NCBI GenBank assembly: GCA_026706895.1
Contig: JAPOXW010000006.1
Coordinates: 62,001-126,000, forward strand
Direction of reading: 5' to 3'
Origin: Gammaproteobacteria bacterium
GTDB taxonomy: Bacteria; Pseudomonadota; Gammaproteobacteria; Poriferisulfidales; Poriferisulfidaceae
DNA length: 64,000 nt
Shown here: one piece after another, positions 36,724 through 43,972 of the stretch
Layout: every line of letters starts with the position of its first letter
Position numbering within the stretch: the first letter of the stretch is position 1
Program-made: the position numbers and the translations under genes
The notes under the pieces: generated by a model
The model's database searches: none
What the model saw: only the letters and a program-made list of their open reading frames with translations
Told to the model about the DNA's origin: nothing

Positions 36724-36785
36724 AAGCAAAATCAAAAGGTCAGAAGTTTAGATATCCATAAAGCATTCCACCACAAATGTCAGTC

Positions 36786-37844
36786 CTAGGTAGGGCAAAC
36801 ATCCACACAATCTATAGCAAGATGAAAAATTTGTTTTGCTCCTTCGGTATAGCGGTCCGGCTCAACAAATTGCAAAGGTGTTGGGTATACAATCTGAACG
36901 TCTGCCAGAACCCCACGCAAGATACCAATAGCGACCGCTTGCATCTTGCTACCAGTCGGCGCAATTACGAAACGATCAAACATTGAGTGTCGCTGATACA
37001 GTTCCAGAATTAGATTAAGCGTTTCTCGATAATCTAAAGTGCTGGTTTCATGACTTTCTGCACGTTGTAGTGCCTTCATAGTTGATTCGTTCAATTGACT
37101 TATCGCTTTTGTGCGCCAAGCCATTTCTTCGTGTGGAGGCATTCCGTGGATTACATCATTGTGAGTAGGCTGAACCTCTTGAACAAGGTGTGACAATTGG
37201 CCGTGATCAAATGAAGGAAATGAAATGAGGCGGATGGTCCCTCCGAGCATAAAAACTGAGCTTAACTCTGGACTAGAGACAATCTCGAAAATTCCGCTAG
37301 AAATAAATGAGGGATTTGTATCATTCGTTGTACGTGCTTTTTCATACTCCTCCTTGTACTCTTGCTCAGACGGTGGATAGTTTTCCGCTTCTGTATACAA
37401 AATGTGAAATTTTTTCTTCCTCTTCATCAACTCCACAATAATTTGTACGATCAATAAGCGTGACATGCCCGAAACATCTAAAAAAATTTTCTCAAAATTC
37501 AATATATTATTAGCAAGAGTCAGTCCCATGCCTGATGGATATTCTCGATCATATTCGAACTCTTCGAAATTGAGGTTGTTTTCCCTGCAAAACTCCAGAC
37601 ATGTTGTTTCTTGGTTCTCCTCTATCTTGGGCAGATATCGAATCAATACAGTGTGGAAGTGTTTCGACGCCTCGCATGCTCTTTTTAGTCCAACTAGCGC
37701 CCTTTCCTCAAACCCCATTCCAACCACAATACAGTCCGCAGGACCAAGTGCAATATTGTCAATTGGTTCCAGCTCTGGCCAGTCGACCGAGGATAACCGC
37801 TCATCTTTTCTGAGCAAATCTTCTAGTACTTTTTCATCGCCCAT
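36786..37844 (-). CDS. Unknown Rossmann-like protein, third gene of the island operon (CARF-like?)
   Basis: A 352-residue cytoplasmic protein I do not recognise. It shows two Rossmann-type stretches. One begins DCIVVGMGFEERALVGLKRA and continues with IFLDVSGMSRLLIVQIIVEL (near residue 121). The second, near residue 291, is DRFVIAPTGSKMQAVAIGIL. The glycine/serine turn before a helix resembles nucleotide-binding CARF/SAVED sensors, but this is a visual analogy only. The ATG at 37844 overlaps the kinase-ATPase stop by 11 nt (ATGGGCGATGA) with AGGA upstream, so it is the last gene of a three-gene operon. Codon use is AT-rich, unlike flanking genes. Confidence 0.75.
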   Translation of the reverse strand: MGDEKVLEDLLRKDERLSSVDWPELEPIDNIALGPADCIVVGMGFEERALVGLKRACEASKHFHTVLIRYLPKIEENQETTCLEFCRENNLNFEEFEYDREYPSGMGLTLANNILNFEKIFLDVSGMSRLLIVQIIVELMKRKKKFHILYTEAENYPPSEQEYKEEYEKARTTNDTNPSFISSGIFEIVSSPELSSVFMLGGTIRLISFPSFDHGQLSHLVQEVQPTHNDVIHGMPPHEEMAWRTKAISQLNESTMKALQRAESHETSTLDYRETLNLILELYQRHSMFDRFVIAPTGSKMQAVAIGILRGVLADVQIVYPTPLQFVEPDRYTEGAKQIFHLAIDCVDVCPT

Positions 37845-40323
37845 TATCTTTCCTATCAAACAAATTTTTTTGAGTTTTACTGTCTTTTCTCTTCACCCTC
37901 GGATTATTAGCACTTTTAATTCGCTTTCGCTTTTCGAAGGTGCTTGGGTCCGTTAGAAGCAACTCTATTTCATCATTCTCAAGTTGTATGGAGTCTCTTT
38001 TACTAAATGTGAGATTGAAATATGGCAATAAATAGCGCCTCAAATAAAGCCGAGGCACAACATCTCCACGGCGACTTTTCCCTCGAGAATCCATCATCAG
38101 GATTGAAAATCTAATTAGGTCATTTAAGAGATGTTGAGCATCATCGGATAAATGTAGAGCTTCATAGGGTTCTATTCTTGACGCTTGGTGCGGTGGATTC
38201 CCTTTTTCATTACGCGCATTGCGATATCGCATATAGGAACTCGCGACATTTCCTAGCGTACTGATGATTAGAGCAAGCTTTTCTCCATGGCGTGGCAAAT
38301 TTCGTACTGACTCTATAAATTCGCCTGCTGCTGTTCGAATAGTGCGAGACTGTCGAACAGATGAGATTCGTGGTACATCCTCGCTTGAAGAAAGGTCGCC
38401 TACATCTTCCACCATCTTGCCAACGAGTCGAATCATGTAATGTATATCGCCACTACACATCGCGGTCACTGTTTGAACTCCCCAATAAGTATTTTGACCC
38501 TTTCTTTCTCTGAATTGTCTTGCAGTATCATTTTCATTTCTCGGGTTATCGCCGAGTAATTCCATCAAGGAATCACATGGGAAATCCTTGACTTCGTGGA
38601 ATCGACGCTGAAAAAGATCTTCGAGAAAGCTCTGTACTTGACTACTATCGCTCTCCAAGTAGCGTAAGCCCAAATTTAATAAGTAATATTCTCGTTCTTC
38701 GACATACTGTTTTTCATCAACGTCTTTCCGCTCAAATGAAATTGGGCTCTCCGTAGACAATTTGAAAAACACATCCGCACTTCGGTGCATAAACAATCTA
38801 TTGAGATTTTGCTGCAATTTTTCCGTAATTTTAGGTGTTGAATAATCGTCAATAAAATAGAAAAAAGGACGTTCCTGTAAAAATGTAAATGTTTTTCTTA
38901 AGGCAGAACAAAATTTAAGCAATACTTCAGGGCCCATATAGCCTTTTATTGGCACTTCAGGCACATGACAAAACTGTTGTTTTTTAGCCGCGCGATCACG
39001 CTGCTTCACAAGCTTGTCAATTAATGCAGTAAATTGTCCAGCAGATGGTTCGGGGGGCTGCGTTAGCCCTATAATCTCCCACAATTCCTTCGTCACCTCA
39101 GGCTCTTTTTTCTCAAATTCTTCTTCAAAATATTTTTTCGCCCAAAAACTCACATGCCGTAAAGTTTCCGCCATAAGGCTCACAATAGCAAAATGCATTG
39201 GGATGTCGATAGCTTCTTGCCTTTCGGGTAGTTCGTAACGTGGAAATGAGAAATATAAATCATCGCAACGGTAATAGACACCTATAAACTGAAGTTGATC
39301 TGGATTATCTGATTCTGTGGAAATTTTGTAGTCTAGACTTAACGCCCGAAAAACCGTTGTTTTGCCGCAACCTCGTGGTCCAGTAAGCACAAGATTCGAT
39401 CGTGCTTGAATCTCCGTTAAACCCAATAATCGATCCGAATATAAATTCCTGAGCAATAAATGGGAATTACCCATCTGCTCACAGTTTGGATAATCAAACG
39501 GAGTCACCATCTTGGCTGATGTGTGCTCCCTTGTAGCCTCTTGAAAAGAGTTGTCTACTGTGCGCAATTTTGCATCTAGTTCTTTTGCATTCTGCGCTAA
39601 GGAATCAGCCAGAGAATCTGTCTCAATCAAATGCCTCTTCAAAAAATCATCTCGCAATATGCTGAGCACATAACGGTCACGTGATTGTTGCTTTTGATAG
39701 TCAATGCAAGACAACAAATCTTTCAGAGTATGTGCGATAGAAAGGTAATCATTAGTATGCGGTTTGGCGGTTACTCCAGCTACCCCAAAATCAGTAACTT
39801 TAAACGTTGGTCTACCAGTCAAATCAAACTCTGACTTGGAGACTAGTACATTACCCGAATGCAAATCACCATGTTTCATTCCGCGTAGGTCAAGTTCAAA
39901 CAATAGACTAAACATTGTCGTCAAAAATTTTTCTACAAAGGGAACATTTATGTCGTCACGATACTTTTTTATGTACTCTCTCAAAGACAATCCAGGCACG
40001 TACTGAAAAATGAATACCACAAAAGTGTTGCCTAGTTTGTCATCCTCCCAAAGTAGTGCGTTTATACACCGAACAACACTCTCGTTTTCCAACAAGTTGG
40101 CTTTTCTTGCCTCTTCCAAATAAATGTCACTTTGCTTCGGATCTACAGACAAATTTTCCTGTGGCACAAATTTGAATGCCAGATCTCCCGCCACCTCATC
40201 AGAATGAGCCCTATATACGTGGGCATTAAAACCAGAATCAACTTTATTAATTATTCTGTAGTTTGAAAACCCTGGGAGAGTTACATCTAAAAAATGATCA
40301 GAAGGAGGCAGGTACTTTCTCAT
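37834..40323 (-). CDS. Ser/Thr kinase fused to an ORC/STAND-like P-loop ATPase
   Basis: An 829-residue fusion. Residues about 20-225 form a protein-kinase domain with a degenerate glycine loop (KVDSGFNAHVYRA), a VAIK-type lysine (LAFKFV), an EARK helix, the HRD-equivalent MKHGDLHSGNVLV and VTDFGVAG, so it appears catalytically complete. From about 300 onward is an AAA/ORC-like NTPase: Walker A LVLTGPRGCGKTTVFRALS (near 314), Walker B FFYFIDDYS (near 488) and FFKLSTESP like sensor 1. No membrane span is seen. It starts one base after the methyltransferase stop. Low GC and AT-rich codons suggest horizontal transfer. It is probably the sensing and effector hub of the operon. Confidence 0.85.
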   Translation of the reverse strand: MRKYLPPSDHFLDVTLPGFSNYRIINKVDSGFNAHVYRAHSDEVAGDLAFKFVPQENLSVDPKQSDIYLEEARKANLLENESVVRCINALLWEDDKLGNTFVVFIFQYVPGLSLREYIKKYRDDINVPFVEKFLTTMFSLLFELDLRGMKHGDLHSGNVLVSKSEFDLTGRPTFKVTDFGVAGVTAKPHTNDYLSIAHTLKDLLSCIDYQKQQSRDRYVLSILRDDFLKRHLIETDSLADSLAQNAKELDAKLRTVDNSFQEATREHTSAKMVTPFDYPNCEQMGNSHLLLRNLYSDRLLGLTEIQARSNLVLTGPRGCGKTTVFRALSLDYKISTESDNPDQLQFIGVYYRCDDLYFSFPRYELPERQEAIDIPMHFAIVSLMAETLRHVSFWAKKYFEEEFEKKEPEVTKELWEIIGLTQPPEPSAGQFTALIDKLVKQRDRAAKKQQFCHVPEVPIKGYMGPEVLLKFCSALRKTFTFLQERPFFYFIDDYSTPKITEKLQQNLNRLFMHRSADVFFKLSTESPISFERKDVDEKQYVEEREYYLLNLGLRYLESDSSQVQSFLEDLFQRRFHEVKDFPCDSLMELLGDNPRNENDTARQFRERKGQNTYWGVQTVTAMCSGDIHYMIRLVGKMVEDVGDLSSSEDVPRISSVRQSRTIRTAAGEFIESVRNLPRHGEKLALIISTLGNVASSYMRYRNARNEKGNPPHQASRIEPYEALHLSDDAQHLLNDLIRFSILMMDSRGKSRRGDVVPRLYLRRYLLPYFNLTFSKRDSIQLENDEIELLLTDPSTFEKRKRIKSANNPRVKRKDSKTQKNLFDRKDNGR

Positions 40324-40324
40324 A

Positions 40325-41449
40325 CTAACAATGCCTCTCGTATACCAAGATATATTCTTTTTTTACGCCAGAGGAGTTGCGTCTTGAACGTCTAATATCA
40401 GGAATTTGGTCGCTGATGATCTCCTTAATTCTCAAATTTGGTGCAGATTCGTCTAAAACTTCCGAAAGCACTTCCGAAGGAGAGCGGTTACCATTTCGCG
40501 TGGCCCTTTCACCAACCACGAAAACACACCGCCCATTTTTAGCTAGTGCCGTTGTGAGTATCCGGGCATAGGATGACATCATGCGGCGAAAATCTGTATC
40601 GCTGGTAAGTCGTGCATCAATGTGATCCTGAGTGTTTCCAGATAAAAACCAATTTCTCAAACGATTGTCGCGCCCATAATCAAGTGCATTCATGTAGGGT
40701 GGGCTCGTGATGAAACAGTTCACTGTGCATGGAAGATTGAGGCACTCGATAGTTGATCGACGAACCCCCACTACTAAGTTAGTATCTATCTTTTCGTAGC
40801 GTTTCAATGCACGTGCGACTTTCGCTTGAATGCGAGATTCGACACTTCGATATTCGTACATCTCAGGATAATTTTCTCGAGGAAATTTTTTTGATCTGAG
40901 ATAGGGGACAAGGTGGCTGCTTGGGAAAGATAGAAACCCTGGGCGCTGATGATGTAAAACACCTAGTAAACAAGCCAGCAAAAAATAATCTTTGCGCTTA
41001 CGCAATACAACCAGTAGTCCCAATATTTCTTTGAGTGTTTTAGGGTGATAGAAGTTACGTACCCAACTTGGAACCCGGCGAAGATCTATTCGACGTGATT
41101 GTGCGACTTTTAGTGCTTTATCCAATGCTGTACTTGCTTCTTCGAGATCACTAGGGGCATTCAGTTTCCCTTTAGTAAGAGTAATCGCATAAGGACTAAC
41201 ATCTGATGCGAAGACTTGCCGTCCCATCTGAACGCATTCAAGCGGAATTGTGCCACTGCCACAAAAAACATCTGCAACTATTTCTCCTCTTCTTGAATAC
41301 TCTGAAACTAGGTCGCGAGCGATGGAACTTTTCAACTTGCCAATATATGGTGAAAGTTGGTGCAACGTCGACTCGCTATGTGTGCAAGACTCCCGCCACT
41401 CTAGAGGCGCAGAATTAGGCTGGTCGATCAAACTCTGGTATGAACGCAT
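40325..41449 (-). CDS. DNA methyltransferase (TSPPY type)
   Basis: A 374-residue SAM-dependent DNA methylase. Motif I is ADVFCGSGTIPLECVQMG near residue 59 and the catalytic motif IV is CFITSPPYMNALDYGRDNR near residue 248, the SPPY form usually linked to N4-cytosine or N6-adenine methylation. Motif I precedes motif IV, with about 180 residues between that could hold the target-recognition part. The ATG at 41449 has only a weak ribosome-binding site. It is the first gene of the island operon: one base separates it from the kinase-ATPase. A tentative role is self-marking, but no dedicated restriction nuclease is in the operon. Confidence 0.85.
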   Translation of the reverse strand: MRSYQSLIDQPNSAPLEWRESCTHSESTLHQLSPYIGKLKSSIARDLVSEYSRRGEIVADVFCGSGTIPLECVQMGRQVFASDVSPYAITLTKGKLNAPSDLEEASTALDKALKVAQSRRIDLRRVPSWVRNFYHPKTLKEILGLLVVLRKRKDYFLLACLLGVLHHQRPGFLSFPSSHLVPYLRSKKFPRENYPEMYEYRSVESRIQAKVARALKRYEKIDTNLVVGVRRSTIECLNLPCTVNCFITSPPYMNALDYGRDNRLRNWFLSGNTQDHIDARLTSDTDFRRMMSSYARILTTALAKNGRCVFVVGERATRNGNRSPSEVLSEVLDESAPNLRIKEIISDQIPDIRRSRRNSSGVKKEYILVYERHC

Positions 41450-41804
41450 TACACAATTTCTAAATATTGTTCATAGCCCGAATTTAGATTTAGGCGTAGA
41501 TCAAGGTCTCCGCAAGATATTGATAAATAATGTAAATTTTCATGTTTCTGGGAACCTGATGAGCAGTATTACGGCTTTATTGTTTCTGGGCAAAGAATTA
41601 TCGCACGAATTTGTCTGGCTCCTTTGTCCAGAAGGCAGCAATTCTCCACACTACGGGAATTACGATCGCTAAGAACATCTATCGGGCCACCGTAATGCTG
41701 GAACTCCAGCCTGTTGGCTACCAGCCACTACCCTTCAAAAGCCTGTGGAATTTGCCAGACAAACAAACCTCGCATAGAAGACTCTATCGGGAAGGGAGCA
41801 CTGC
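41450..41804. other. Intergenic region upstream of the island operon
   Basis: This 355-nt stretch contains no convincing gene: the plus-strand ORFs of 140 and 65 residues are short, have no family features and cross the methyltransferase start. It is AT-rich next to the methyltransferase and becomes mixed-GC and structured further upstream (see the ncRNA candidate). No clear promoter with good -35 and -10 spacing could be fixed. Confidence 0.6.
41610..41763 (-). ncRNA. Candidate structured RNA upstream of the island operon
   Basis: A perfect 10-bp inverted repeat TTTGTCTGGC/GCCAGACAAA brackets a 154-bp element. Inside it AATTCTCCACA pairs with TGTGGAATT (two-base bulge), ATTACG pairs with CGTAAT, and CTGG-AACT-CCAG and GGCT-ACC-AGCC form small hairpins. 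The nesting suggests a closed, multi-stem RNA. The strand is chosen only because the operon reads that way. The alternatives are a small inverted-repeat element without visible target duplication, or chance. The pairing is seen; the RNA role is inferred. Confidence 0.35.
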
Positions 41805-43535
41805 TTAGATGTCTTCAATCAATCCAGCCCATTCTGGAACCTGTTGATCCCGACTGAGTTTCGCACGCTGCAGACAGACCGATTCGAATATCTCCTCAAG
41901 ATCAATGGCACATGGTTCTGCCTGAGTTCGGATTCCCGGTAGGCTTGCAGAAGCCTCTACTAGAAATTTCTCTTGTAAAACAGAGTCGCTCCGGAAATAG
42001 GCTTGATCCCACCATTCCAGAATCCGGTTTTGCGCTTCATCCATAACGGATTCGCTGGGTAGGAAGTTTTTCTTCTTATTCTGATTCACCCTGCGGTTGG
42101 CCGGCATCAGGTTCCAGAGATCACTGCACGACCACACCGACCATGGTAGACAATGATCTATATCCAGCGATTGTTCACGAAGACGGCTCCCGCTCCATAC
42201 GCAGTACAGTCGACGATTTTCTAGAAGACGCATTGCCTGCTCACGGGAAATTTTCACATCCCGCTCCGGGTCGGCCCAAGCCATAACATCCCTGAGCTTT
42301 CTCTCGTCAATGACCCTCCCCTGCTTTTGCGCATACCCGCGCATCATCTCGGCCCACTCCGCTATGACGACCGGTTCCACCCACACCGCATGCTTACGCA
42401 GGGCCTGCCACAAGGATTCTGGAACCCGAGCCTCACCGAAGCTGTATAGATAGGTTTTGTCTAGCCAGACTTCTCTAGGCGAGCGCGTCTTCGCACCCGC
42501 TTTTACCTGGAGAACCGGTTTTCCTTCTTTACCGGGATAGGTCATGTATTTGATCGGCATCTTCCTGATGTTGGCTGCCACATCTCGAAGTGCTTGATGT
42601 ATGAAGGGCCCCTGCTCTTTCCCAAAACGCATCCCGATCCGAAAGTCGAGGTGTGACAGGAGCTCAATTTCTTTATAAGCCGCCTTCACGAAACCAAGTT
42701 TTGGGTTCTTGCTAGGCAACTGGGGGAGTTTTTCTTTTAGAAGTGGTTTATACAGCCGCAGCCAGATCAAGGCTACCAGTCCCATCGGAAGACTAATGCT
42801 TCCGTCGTCATTTGCCCGTGCAATGCCCGGCGCGCCGTCCGCGATCCGGCACAGCGTACGCAGCAGACCCAACTTGTGGGTCGCACTCTTGCTTTGTTTG
42901 AGAATGATGTGGCGAAGGAGCGGCAACTCCCCAGTTCCATCGTCCGGGAAGCGGATTACAAGGTTTGTCCAGCAGATCCCTTCGCGCCCCAAGCCATCTT
43001 CGACCTCGTCTTGGTAAGCTACAAATGCACCATGGTCGCGAGCCAGAGATTCGATCTCTTCCACAGAAACAGCATGAGCTTTCCGGCCCAGAACTTCAGG
43101 ACCGTGGCGCAAGCTGATCGCTAGAGATCCGTCCGGTTTGAGCAGGTTGATGGTTTTCCGGAATGCCCGTTTGCGGTCGGACCGCTCCACGTGCTGCCAC
43201 ACACCATTGATCAGAATCAGGTCGAAAGGTTCCTGCTTGGAGAGCTTACGCAGGCTAGGCAGACTATCGTTACGCCACCGGATGCCAGTCCCAGGATGCC
43301 ACCGCCTGCCCTCCTTGCGCATCTCTGGAGAGGGCTCCACCGCAATCACTTGGTGGTGCAACTCCGAGAGCCAAGCCGCATCCCGTCCACTGCCCGCGCC
43401 AATATCCAGAATCCGCCCGGGGTTTTCTGGCAGGAACCTTTTCAGCCAACCATGAATATCTTCCGCGGCGACCGCCTCGTATTGCTTCGCAGCTTCCCGG
43501 GCGTTTTCTTGGTACCAGCGGGTGGAGTCGAGCAT
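41805..43535 (-). CDS. Class I SAM methyltransferase fused to an HNH endonuclease
   Basis: A 576-residue fusion. The N-terminal third is a UbiE/TrmB-like methyltransferase (RILDIGAGSGRDAAWLSEL, then IAVEPSPEMRKEGRRW and FDLILINGVWQHVERSDR). The C-terminal part carries an HNH nuclease: RRLYCVWSGSRLREQSLDID, HCLPWSVWSCSDLWNLMPA and NRRVNQNKKKNFLPS, with cysteine, DIDH and asparagine positions expected for a beta-beta-alpha-metal site. The middle is helical and unrecognised. It is on the same strand as the island operon, 355 nt upstream. GC is closer to the host than the operon's. Likely a nucleic-acid-targeting defence or modification protein. Confidence 0.75.
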   Translation of the reverse strand: MLDSTRWYQENAREAAKQYEAVAAEDIHGWLKRFLPENPGRILDIGAGSGRDAAWLSELHHQVIAVEPSPEMRKEGRRWHPGTGIRWRNDSLPSLRKLSKQEPFDLILINGVWQHVERSDRKRAFRKTINLLKPDGSLAISLRHGPEVLGRKAHAVSVEEIESLARDHGAFVAYQDEVEDGLGREGICWTNLVIRFPDDGTGELPLLRHIILKQSKSATHKLGLLRTLCRIADGAPGIARANDDGSISLPMGLVALIWLRLYKPLLKEKLPQLPSKNPKLGFVKAAYKEIELLSHLDFRIGMRFGKEQGPFIHQALRDVAANIRKMPIKYMTYPGKEGKPVLQVKAGAKTRSPREVWLDKTYLYSFGEARVPESLWQALRKHAVWVEPVVIAEWAEMMRGYAQKQGRVIDERKLRDVMAWADPERDVKISREQAMRLLENRRLYCVWSGSRLREQSLDIDHCLPWSVWSCSDLWNLMPANRRVNQNKKKNFLPSESVMDEAQNRILEWWDQAYFRSDSVLQEKFLVEASASLPGIRTQAEPCAIDLEEIFESVCLQRAKLSRDQQVPEWAGLIEDI

Positions 43536-43617
43536 CTAGAAGACAAGCTATCCGAGAAAATCCAACGCGATTTTAGCCTGCCGAGAACCCGTTATTCACA
43601 TTTGATACCATTAGGCT

Positions 43618-43812
43618 ATGAACAAAATGTATAGCCAAGAGGAAAAGTCAGCAATAAAGTACAGCGACTGTCCTTCCTGTAGCCATGATGAACACACTCA
43701 CATTCGCTCGCATTGCAGTGAAAACGGCTGGATTATGATCGCAGTCTGTAATTCATGCGAAAAAGAGTATGAGTTCTATTTTACGGACGAACATGGCAAG
43801 CCGCTCAATTAG
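43618..43812 (+). CDS. Small zinc-ribbon protein
   Basis: A 64-residue protein with two cysteine knuckles, YSDCPSCSHDEH and VCNSCEKEYEFYF, separated by about 27 residues, the spacing of a zinc ribbon. The ATG at 43618 or the in-frame ATG two codons later could be the start. It is divergent from the methyltransferase-HNH gene across about 80 bp that must hold both promoters. Function unknown; small zinc ribbons often bind nucleic acid or a partner protein. Confidence 0.5.
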   Translation: MNKMYSQEEKSAIKYSDCPSCSHDEHTHIRSHCSENGWIMIAVCNSCEKEYEFYFTDEHGKPLN

Positions 43813-43972
43813 CATCCCTAACTCTAATCCTTTCGCACCGAAGCCGGGCTATGATCGTGTGCTTCCCCCAAGTTCCGATCAAGAGAGAAAACCGACATTT
43901 CTAGCTGCTGCCGGGAATTCGCACCGGATGGCTTCCTTGATTTCTTCATGGTTGCGCTCGTAGTCCTCTGCC

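Follow-up and report, generated by a model that had tools for sequence, protein, structure and literature searches.

A widespread methyltransferase-HNH nuclease fusion protein as a candidate single-gene defence enzyme

Why would a nuclease be joined, in a single polypeptide, to a methyltransferase that does not look like a DNA methylase? The question is raised by one gene in a 64,000-nucleotide stretch of a Gammaproteobacteria bacterium contig (JAPOXW010000006.1; the whole stretch is referred to as the window), which a first-pass annotation had described as a fusion of a class I methyltransferase with an HNH nuclease. From sequence comparisons and predicted structures we propose, with a probability of roughly one half, that this gene encodes a self-contained, horizontally moving anti-invader nuclease whose methyltransferase would act off the host DNA, on a nucleotide or RNA substrate.

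The fusion itself is real. Its reading frame opens with ATG and is translated through 576 codons with no internal stop, and the motifs that had been picked out in it (DIGAGSGRD, CVWSG, DIDHCLPW and NRRVNQNKKKNFLP) are all found in the protein. Pfam recognizes both halves above its curated cut-offs, Methyltransf_25 at residues 42 to 136 (5.7e-15; 56.2 versus 27 bits) and HNH_4 at residues 451 to 490 (2.5e-6; 27.8 versus 22 bits), and the AlphaFold2 model, built with 64 aligned sequences (mean pLDDT 92.6, pTM 0.85), is a confidently predicted single chain with two enzymes. Homologues that share this architecture along their full length are annotated in Roseomonas, Azospirillum, Sphingobium and Pseudoalteromonas (35 to 47% identity across about 98% of the protein). 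Among 107 complete relatives, which come from several phyla and were retrieved with the C-terminal half as query, 104 carry the methyltransferase in frame; this set is skewed to close kin, as it keeps only the best 80 loci. The fusion is therefore not an accident of sequencing or reading frame. The three unfused cases are a contig-edge fragment, a copy interrupted and spread over two frames, and a stand-alone protein from a cyanobacterium. Beyond the two halves described at first, a third domain of about 240 residues lies between the enzymes (Table 1). The unit is made of established parts, as both halves are known folds and defence nucleases with HNH domains have been described before; as a whole it is named by none of the Pfam, NCBIfam or PADLOC models, and no paper describing such a fusion was found in the open-access literature, to which our search was confined. 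Divergent from the gene, a small open reading frame (43618-43812, plus strand, 64 aa) shows a weak zinc-ribbon match (Elf1-like, 7e-4, below cut-off).

Table 1. Coordinates, in the window, of the fusion gene, the parts of its product and the insert that carries it
Feature	Position	Strand	Basis
Fused methyltransferase-HNH nuclease gene	41805..43535	-	576 aa; ORF call, Pfam, AlphaFold2
Class I SAM-dependent methyltransferase domain, residues 1-196	42948..43535	-	Pfam, invariant residues, fold matches
Middle helical domain, residues 197-438	42222..42947	-	pLDDT >90 in most blocks; C-terminal model unmatched in PDB at E<0.01
HNH (beta-beta-alpha metal) nuclease core, residues 439-494	42054..42221	-	HNH_4, invariant residues, PDB profile matches
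C-terminal helices after the HNH core, residues 495-576	41808..42053	-	W508-W509 invariant; AlphaFold2 model
Low-GC insert, variable-cargo site	36736..43972	.	GC profile; flanked by SixA-like phosphatase gene and alpha/beta-hydrolase gene

The methyltransferase half has the features of a class I SAM-dependent enzyme, namely motif I (D44-x-G46-x-G48-x-G50), an acidic residue after strand 2 (E67) and matching folds. D44, G46, G50, W113, R123, R126 and R184 are invariant in 64 of 64 fused proteins, and the conserved tryptophan and arginines suggest that the role of this half is catalysis, beyond mere binding. DNA methylases carry [DNS]PP[FYW] or a Pro-Cys at motif IV. Both are absent at this position of the fused-family methyltransferase, which reads N110-G111-V112-W113-Q114-H115 in the window protein and SAVW(M/Q)H in most members, and the PADLOC MTase_II models do not match the fusion protein. 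The closest solved folds include those of toxoflavin N1-methyltransferase, CmoM, Trm9, TehB and N-terminal protein methyltransferases (PDB entries 5ufm; 8joz and 4htf for CmoM; 5cm2 for Trm9). These results bear out the initial impression that the arrangement is not a standard type II or IIG one and that the methyltransferase resembles small-molecule or RNA methylases, to which protein methyltransferases can now be added. On the modelled fold a tRNA, protein or small-molecule substrate fits equally well, the fold being one that does not discriminate among them. Identity as a DNA methylase of type II or IIG was considered and rejected on motif IV, on the size of the domain (about 196 residues with no target-recognition domain) and on the non-DNA folds that it matches.

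The nuclease half likewise has an intact active site, of the Cas9/IscB/PtuB type. D460, H461, N475, N484 and K488 of the HNH core are invariant in all 64 fused proteins, the same D-H, N, N, K set is kept in six forms of our alignment (A5) in which the HNH protein is split off as a separate gene, and the assignment to HNH_4 and the beta-beta-alpha metal nucleases is borne out by an above-cut-off match with catalytic His and Asn in place. A profile search of PDB sequences recovers Cas9 and other HNH nucleases, the best being DNA-cutting Cas9 and a nicking HNH nuclease. The top rows of the PDB fold search with the whole model were methyltransferases only, and the C-terminal module was therefore modelled separately; folded alone, it reaches a pLDDT of 92.9 and its matches are for the most part HNH domains, of the Cas9 type and others, whose whole-chain scores are weak (best E 0.015). 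For the middle domain Pfam gives no match, and no solved relative of it emerged from the PDB fold search with the C-terminal model. At its start lies a K-x(2)-T-Y-K-like motif; K216 and K221 are invariant in the fused family together with the other linker residues D199 and R208 (64 fused proteins), and K221 is invariant in fused and split forms alike. We infer that this helical domain probably serves in DNA or partner recognition. The two halves evolve at similar rates (mean identity 0.50 versus 0.48), and their distances correlate (Spearman 0.66).

How far the gene has travelled can be judged from its relatives. With an alignment of the C-terminal half as query, at least 510 loci in a collection of genomes at species level prove to be related; scans of genome and viral contigs with a single sequence returned no match, which we attribute to exact-peptide seeding. 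A long match is present in about 15 of 399 genomes sampled from the window's phylum, and within the window's genus the fusion occurs in one of five other genomes, at 58% identity. The family tree mixes Pseudomonadota, Acidobacteriota, Nitrospirota, Cyanobacteriota and Actinomycetota, and its supported branches force at least six label changes for Pseudomonadota, a figure that leaves the number of transfers uncertain since some host labels are those of metagenome bins. Several copies lie on plasmids and adjoin insertion sequences, and intact copies outnumber broken ones. In the phage collection there was no fused member and there were only methyltransferase-alone matches, and viral matches were partial, one to the HNH end in a viral contig and one to the split HNH protein. 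To judge from these genomes, the fusion gene is widespread, patchy and horizontally moving.

In the window, the gene sits in a 7.2-kb insert (Table 1) with a GC content of 41 to 54%, compared with 60 to 65% around it, which also holds a CARF operon. The two flanking genes are only 60 and 66 bp apart in two same-genus genomes in which the site is empty (G001 and G004), and 4.6 kb separates them in G002 and 3.2 kb in G003, where other cargo is found: a PIN-domain gene, a DUF433 protein and an SDH-type protease in the former and a DUF433/PIN-like pair in the latter. On the far side of the SixA-like gene, before an asnB-like gene, G003 carries DndC, a GmrSD-type protein, an SNF2 helicase and a ParB-domain protein. 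The site between the SixA-like and alpha/beta-hydrolase genes looks like a defence-type hotspot. The G003 locus itself (L283:2910-9983), in which the DndC-like sulfurtransferase, the GmrSD/HEC-06-like protein, the helicase and the ParB-domain protein are accompanied by proteins of 242 and 361 aa (the latter unmatched in Pfam at E<=0.001), resembles a restriction cluster of the phosphorothioation type. Scans for terminators and promoters stayed at chance level, and a search for repeats within the insert gave no clear site duplication.

The CARF operon (36786-41449, minus strand) has three genes, which encode an N6/N4-type DNA methylase (40325-41449), a CARF-like protein (36786-37859) and, between them, a fusion of a Ser/Thr kinase with an ORC/CDC6-like ATPase (37834-40323). 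In PADLOC, the kinase-ATPase matches the N-terminal part and the CARF protein the C-terminal part of one model, CARF6--CARF_STK_AAA, whose counterpart is here split into two genes and joined by the DNA methylase. No such CARF/kinase-ATPase/DNA-methylase operon lies beside the family in about 100 other loci, and its GC content (about 41%) differs from that of the fusion gene (about 53%), so the two are probably separate arrivals.

Elsewhere, neighbours of the relatives match 116 and 140 PADLOC families per 150 proteins at 1e-10, compared with 37 per 144 proteins from random regions of related genomes, a set of genomes that overlaps only partly with the test genomes, counts which refer to families rather than proteins and are inflated by generic ATPases and methylases; many of the control's 37 are repeats of one model name, e.g., DpdF. 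We regard this enrichment as moderate evidence of a defence association. Loci of the split branch adjoin a type I-Fv CRISPR-Cas system, a BREX system and McrBC with a type I restriction-modification system, and many fused loci lie among ordinary genes, outside dense defence islands. The gene has the location, mobility and patchiness typical of defence systems, with an association that is strong at the window site and at the split loci and moderate across the fused loci. The suggestion that this could be an independent defence gene is supported by its context, that is, by the variable site, the differing GC content and a CARF operon that the other loci do not share. Neither of the two findings that the first-pass annotation had named as speaking against it was made: the homologues are not consistently placed in metabolic clusters, and, far from being lost in most members, the catalytic residues H461, N475 and N484 are invariant.

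No conserved ATPase neighbour of the fused family was found. A second HNH_2 protein repeatedly lies close to the fusion gene (L058:6823-8055, L006, L008, L011, L076, L099, L112 and L130), and in L058 it bears a ScoMcrA/type IV-like head. Relatives of the methyltransferase alone have Dnd genes as neighbours in Rhizobium, a PAPS-reductase gene in an E. coli prophage and, in ordinary surroundings, clpB in Azospirillum. In the E. coli prophage (L260:4587-5770) and in phage phi458 (L164:2336-3519), a 195-aa gene overlaps the related methyltransferase gene near an integrase; this pair is present in 29 of 5426 E. coli genomes, adjoining the PAPS-reductase gene.

What the methyltransferase may do for the nuclease is best approached through a distant branch, in which the HNH protein is encoded separately, mostly beside a methyltransferase gene or a HIT hydrolase gene. 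Comparing coordinates by hand at the 13 full-length stand-alone plasmid HNH loci, we found a methyltransferase of a type here called B at most 335 bp away in nine, a HIT-family hydrolase gene directly 5' in two, and methyltransferase B at distances of 3.7 and 7.8 kb in the remaining two. Further pairs have the methyltransferase 5' (G304, G594 and G510) or 3' (G624, G645, G309 and G447) of the HNH gene, and two methyltransferase subgroups occur among the split pairs. Between G594 and G510, identity is 72% for the HNH proteins and 25% for the methyltransferases: the nuclease stayed while its partner was exchanged.

Methyltransferase B is also found next to type IV restriction enzymes of the SauUSI-like kind, in G529 (PADLOC mREase_IV, 6.5e-89), G707 and G582, and MutT homologues adjoin SauUSI homologues in published neighbourhoods (PMC7641849). 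In G541 (L248:5744-9604), methyltransferase B is fused in frame to a SauUSI-like PLD-helicase-DUF3427 protein of 1286 aa; the same locus has a Peptidase_S24-like match. The HIT partner of the HNH protein matches the Thoeris ThsC2 model (2.3e-14), and at L141:1094-2559 (G120) and L159:6657-8029 the HIT hydrolase gene overlaps the HNH gene in the methyltransferase's place. In Paenibacillus, a phosphoribosyl-ATP-pyrophosphohydrolase-like (MazG-like) gene lies 21 bp downstream of an HNH gene, a partner known from one locus only. These partners have little in common, save that HIT, MutT and MazG-like enzymes act on nucleotides. The methyltransferase would then fill a nucleotide-type partner slot, although what applies to the split branch may not apply to the fused form, from which it is remote (HNH modules about 15 to 20% identical).

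Known systems share single traits with the fusion protein. SauUSI-like enzymes likewise combine a large nuclease with a small adjacent or fused partner and have methyltransferase B in common with the split HNH branch, but their nuclease consists of PLD, SF2 helicase and DUF3427 rather than HNH, and the fusion protein has neither helicase nor ATPase. PtuB of Septu is also an HNH nuclease in phage defence, and the split HNH protein matches PtuB models at 1.5e-5 over the HNH core only; Septu requires the PtuA ATPase, whereas the fused family has no consistent ATPase gene and neither Pfam nor PADLOC finds a PtuA-like gene adjacent to the fusion gene in the window. The HNH domains of Cas9 and IscB have the same D-H...N...N-x(2-3)-K pattern and are the best structural and profile matches, but no RuvC half is seen in the fusion protein, weak Cas9 model matches cover the HNH region only, and the C-terminal fold search returned no full-length match. 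EVE-HNH and ScoMcrA-like modification-dependent endonucleases likewise place an accessory domain and HNH in a single-gene anti-invader enzyme; Pfam, PADLOC and NCBIfam detect none of the EVE, SRA, McrA head, GmrSD or SauUSI architectures in the fusion protein. Type IIG enzymes combine methyltransferase and nuclease in one polypeptide, as here, but differ in order, domains and methyltransferase type. MADS (mad2) was rejected, as only the methyltransferase stretch matches (profile positions 277 to 443 of 492) and the adjacent genes that were scanned are not a mad operon.

In the reading that we favour, that of an anti-invader nuclease with a methyltransferase acting off the host DNA, the gene was likely acquired as a single cargo and its product likely works alone. 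The HNH domain would likely cut nucleic acid of the invader, DNA in all likelihood, with the helical domain as its guide. It seems reasonable, with moderate confidence, that the methyltransferase, unlike a type II M subunit, leaves host DNA unmarked and that it occupies a partner enzyme slot otherwise taken by a HIT hydrolase, by a pyrophosphohydrolase (MazG-like or MutT) or by a methyltransferase of another subgroup, the common denominator likely being a nucleotide-type substrate. MTH1, a MutT-family protein, removes N6-methyl-dATP from the nucleotide pool (PMC7152754). We speculate that the partner might alter modified nucleotides, for example, those from degraded phage DNA, and keep them out of host DNA, and that the nuclease might in this way spare its own genome; this would explain the interchange of MutT, HIT, MazG-like enzymes and methyltransferases. 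The idea can be generalized, tentatively and with more doubt than belief, to an interchangeable small enzyme (methyltransferase A or B, HIT, or MutT/MazG type) coupled to HNH or PLD-helicase invader nucleases, which would clear or alter either modified nucleotides or an RNA/nucleotide signal and would thereby make a nuclease lacking a DNA self-mark tolerable, with the window gene as the fused form.

Other explanations would assign the two enzymes differently. The protein might be an RNA-directed restriction-modification or abortive system, in which HNH cuts tRNA or another RNA, a CmoM/Trm9-like methyltransferase modifies the same RNA and the host's RNA stays protected as long as infection does not disturb the balance. 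The closeness of the fold to these two tRNA methyltransferases is consistent with this, as is the match of the split HNH protein to PtuB, whose HNH motif is required for defence by Septu, a system that cleaves tRNA-Tyr (PMC13096335). However, the PtuB match is confined to the HNH core, the best profile matches are DNA-cutting or nicking nucleases, and small-molecule and protein methyltransferases match as well as the tRNA enzymes, and we consider an RNA target for both halves unlikely. We judge it similarly improbable that the protein is a suicide nuclease gated by SAM or methylation, its methyltransferase sensing the SAM/SAH level, a phage SAM hydrolase or a methylase and its HNH domain staying inactive until infection. 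Direct fusion through a conserved linker (D199, R208, K216 and K221) suggests mechanical coupling, and the SAM site is intact, but the invariant tryptophan and arginines suggest catalysis and not binding alone, and SAM sensing would be unexpected for HIT or MazG-like enzymes, so that the slot would need a changed role.

HNH nucleases are frequent in mobile elements. This fact, together with the plasmid copies beside insertion sequences, might point to a homing-type or mobile-element nuclease, or to a toxin-antitoxin-like selfish gene, with no antiviral role; yet the copies showed no regular association with introns, inteins or any one element, the surroundings vary, intact copies outnumber broken ones and the window site bears other defence-type cargo in relatives, all of which makes a purely selfish gene quite improbable. 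The presence of methyltransferase and nuclease in one polypeptide, as in type IIG, could finally suggest a type II-like restriction-modification system in one chain, the methyltransferase protecting host DNA where HNH cuts. This is highly unlikely, not only on the motif IV, domain size and folds described above but also on the behaviour of the split branch, where the methyltransferase is swapped or replaced by a HIT hydrolase, an exchange that a methylase and nuclease sharing one specificity would not tolerate.

Our findings point to a candidate single-gene defence enzyme that is widespread, with at least 510 related loci in one species-level collection, and that goes unnamed as a unit in the libraries searched. 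A helical domain with no solved relative sits inside it. Together with the split branch, this family raises the question of why nucleases that lack a DNA self-mark retain a methyltransferase, HIT or MutT-type partner. If it is true that the partner sanitises modified nucleotides or guards RNA, this would be a general strategy of self-protection distinct from restriction-modification.
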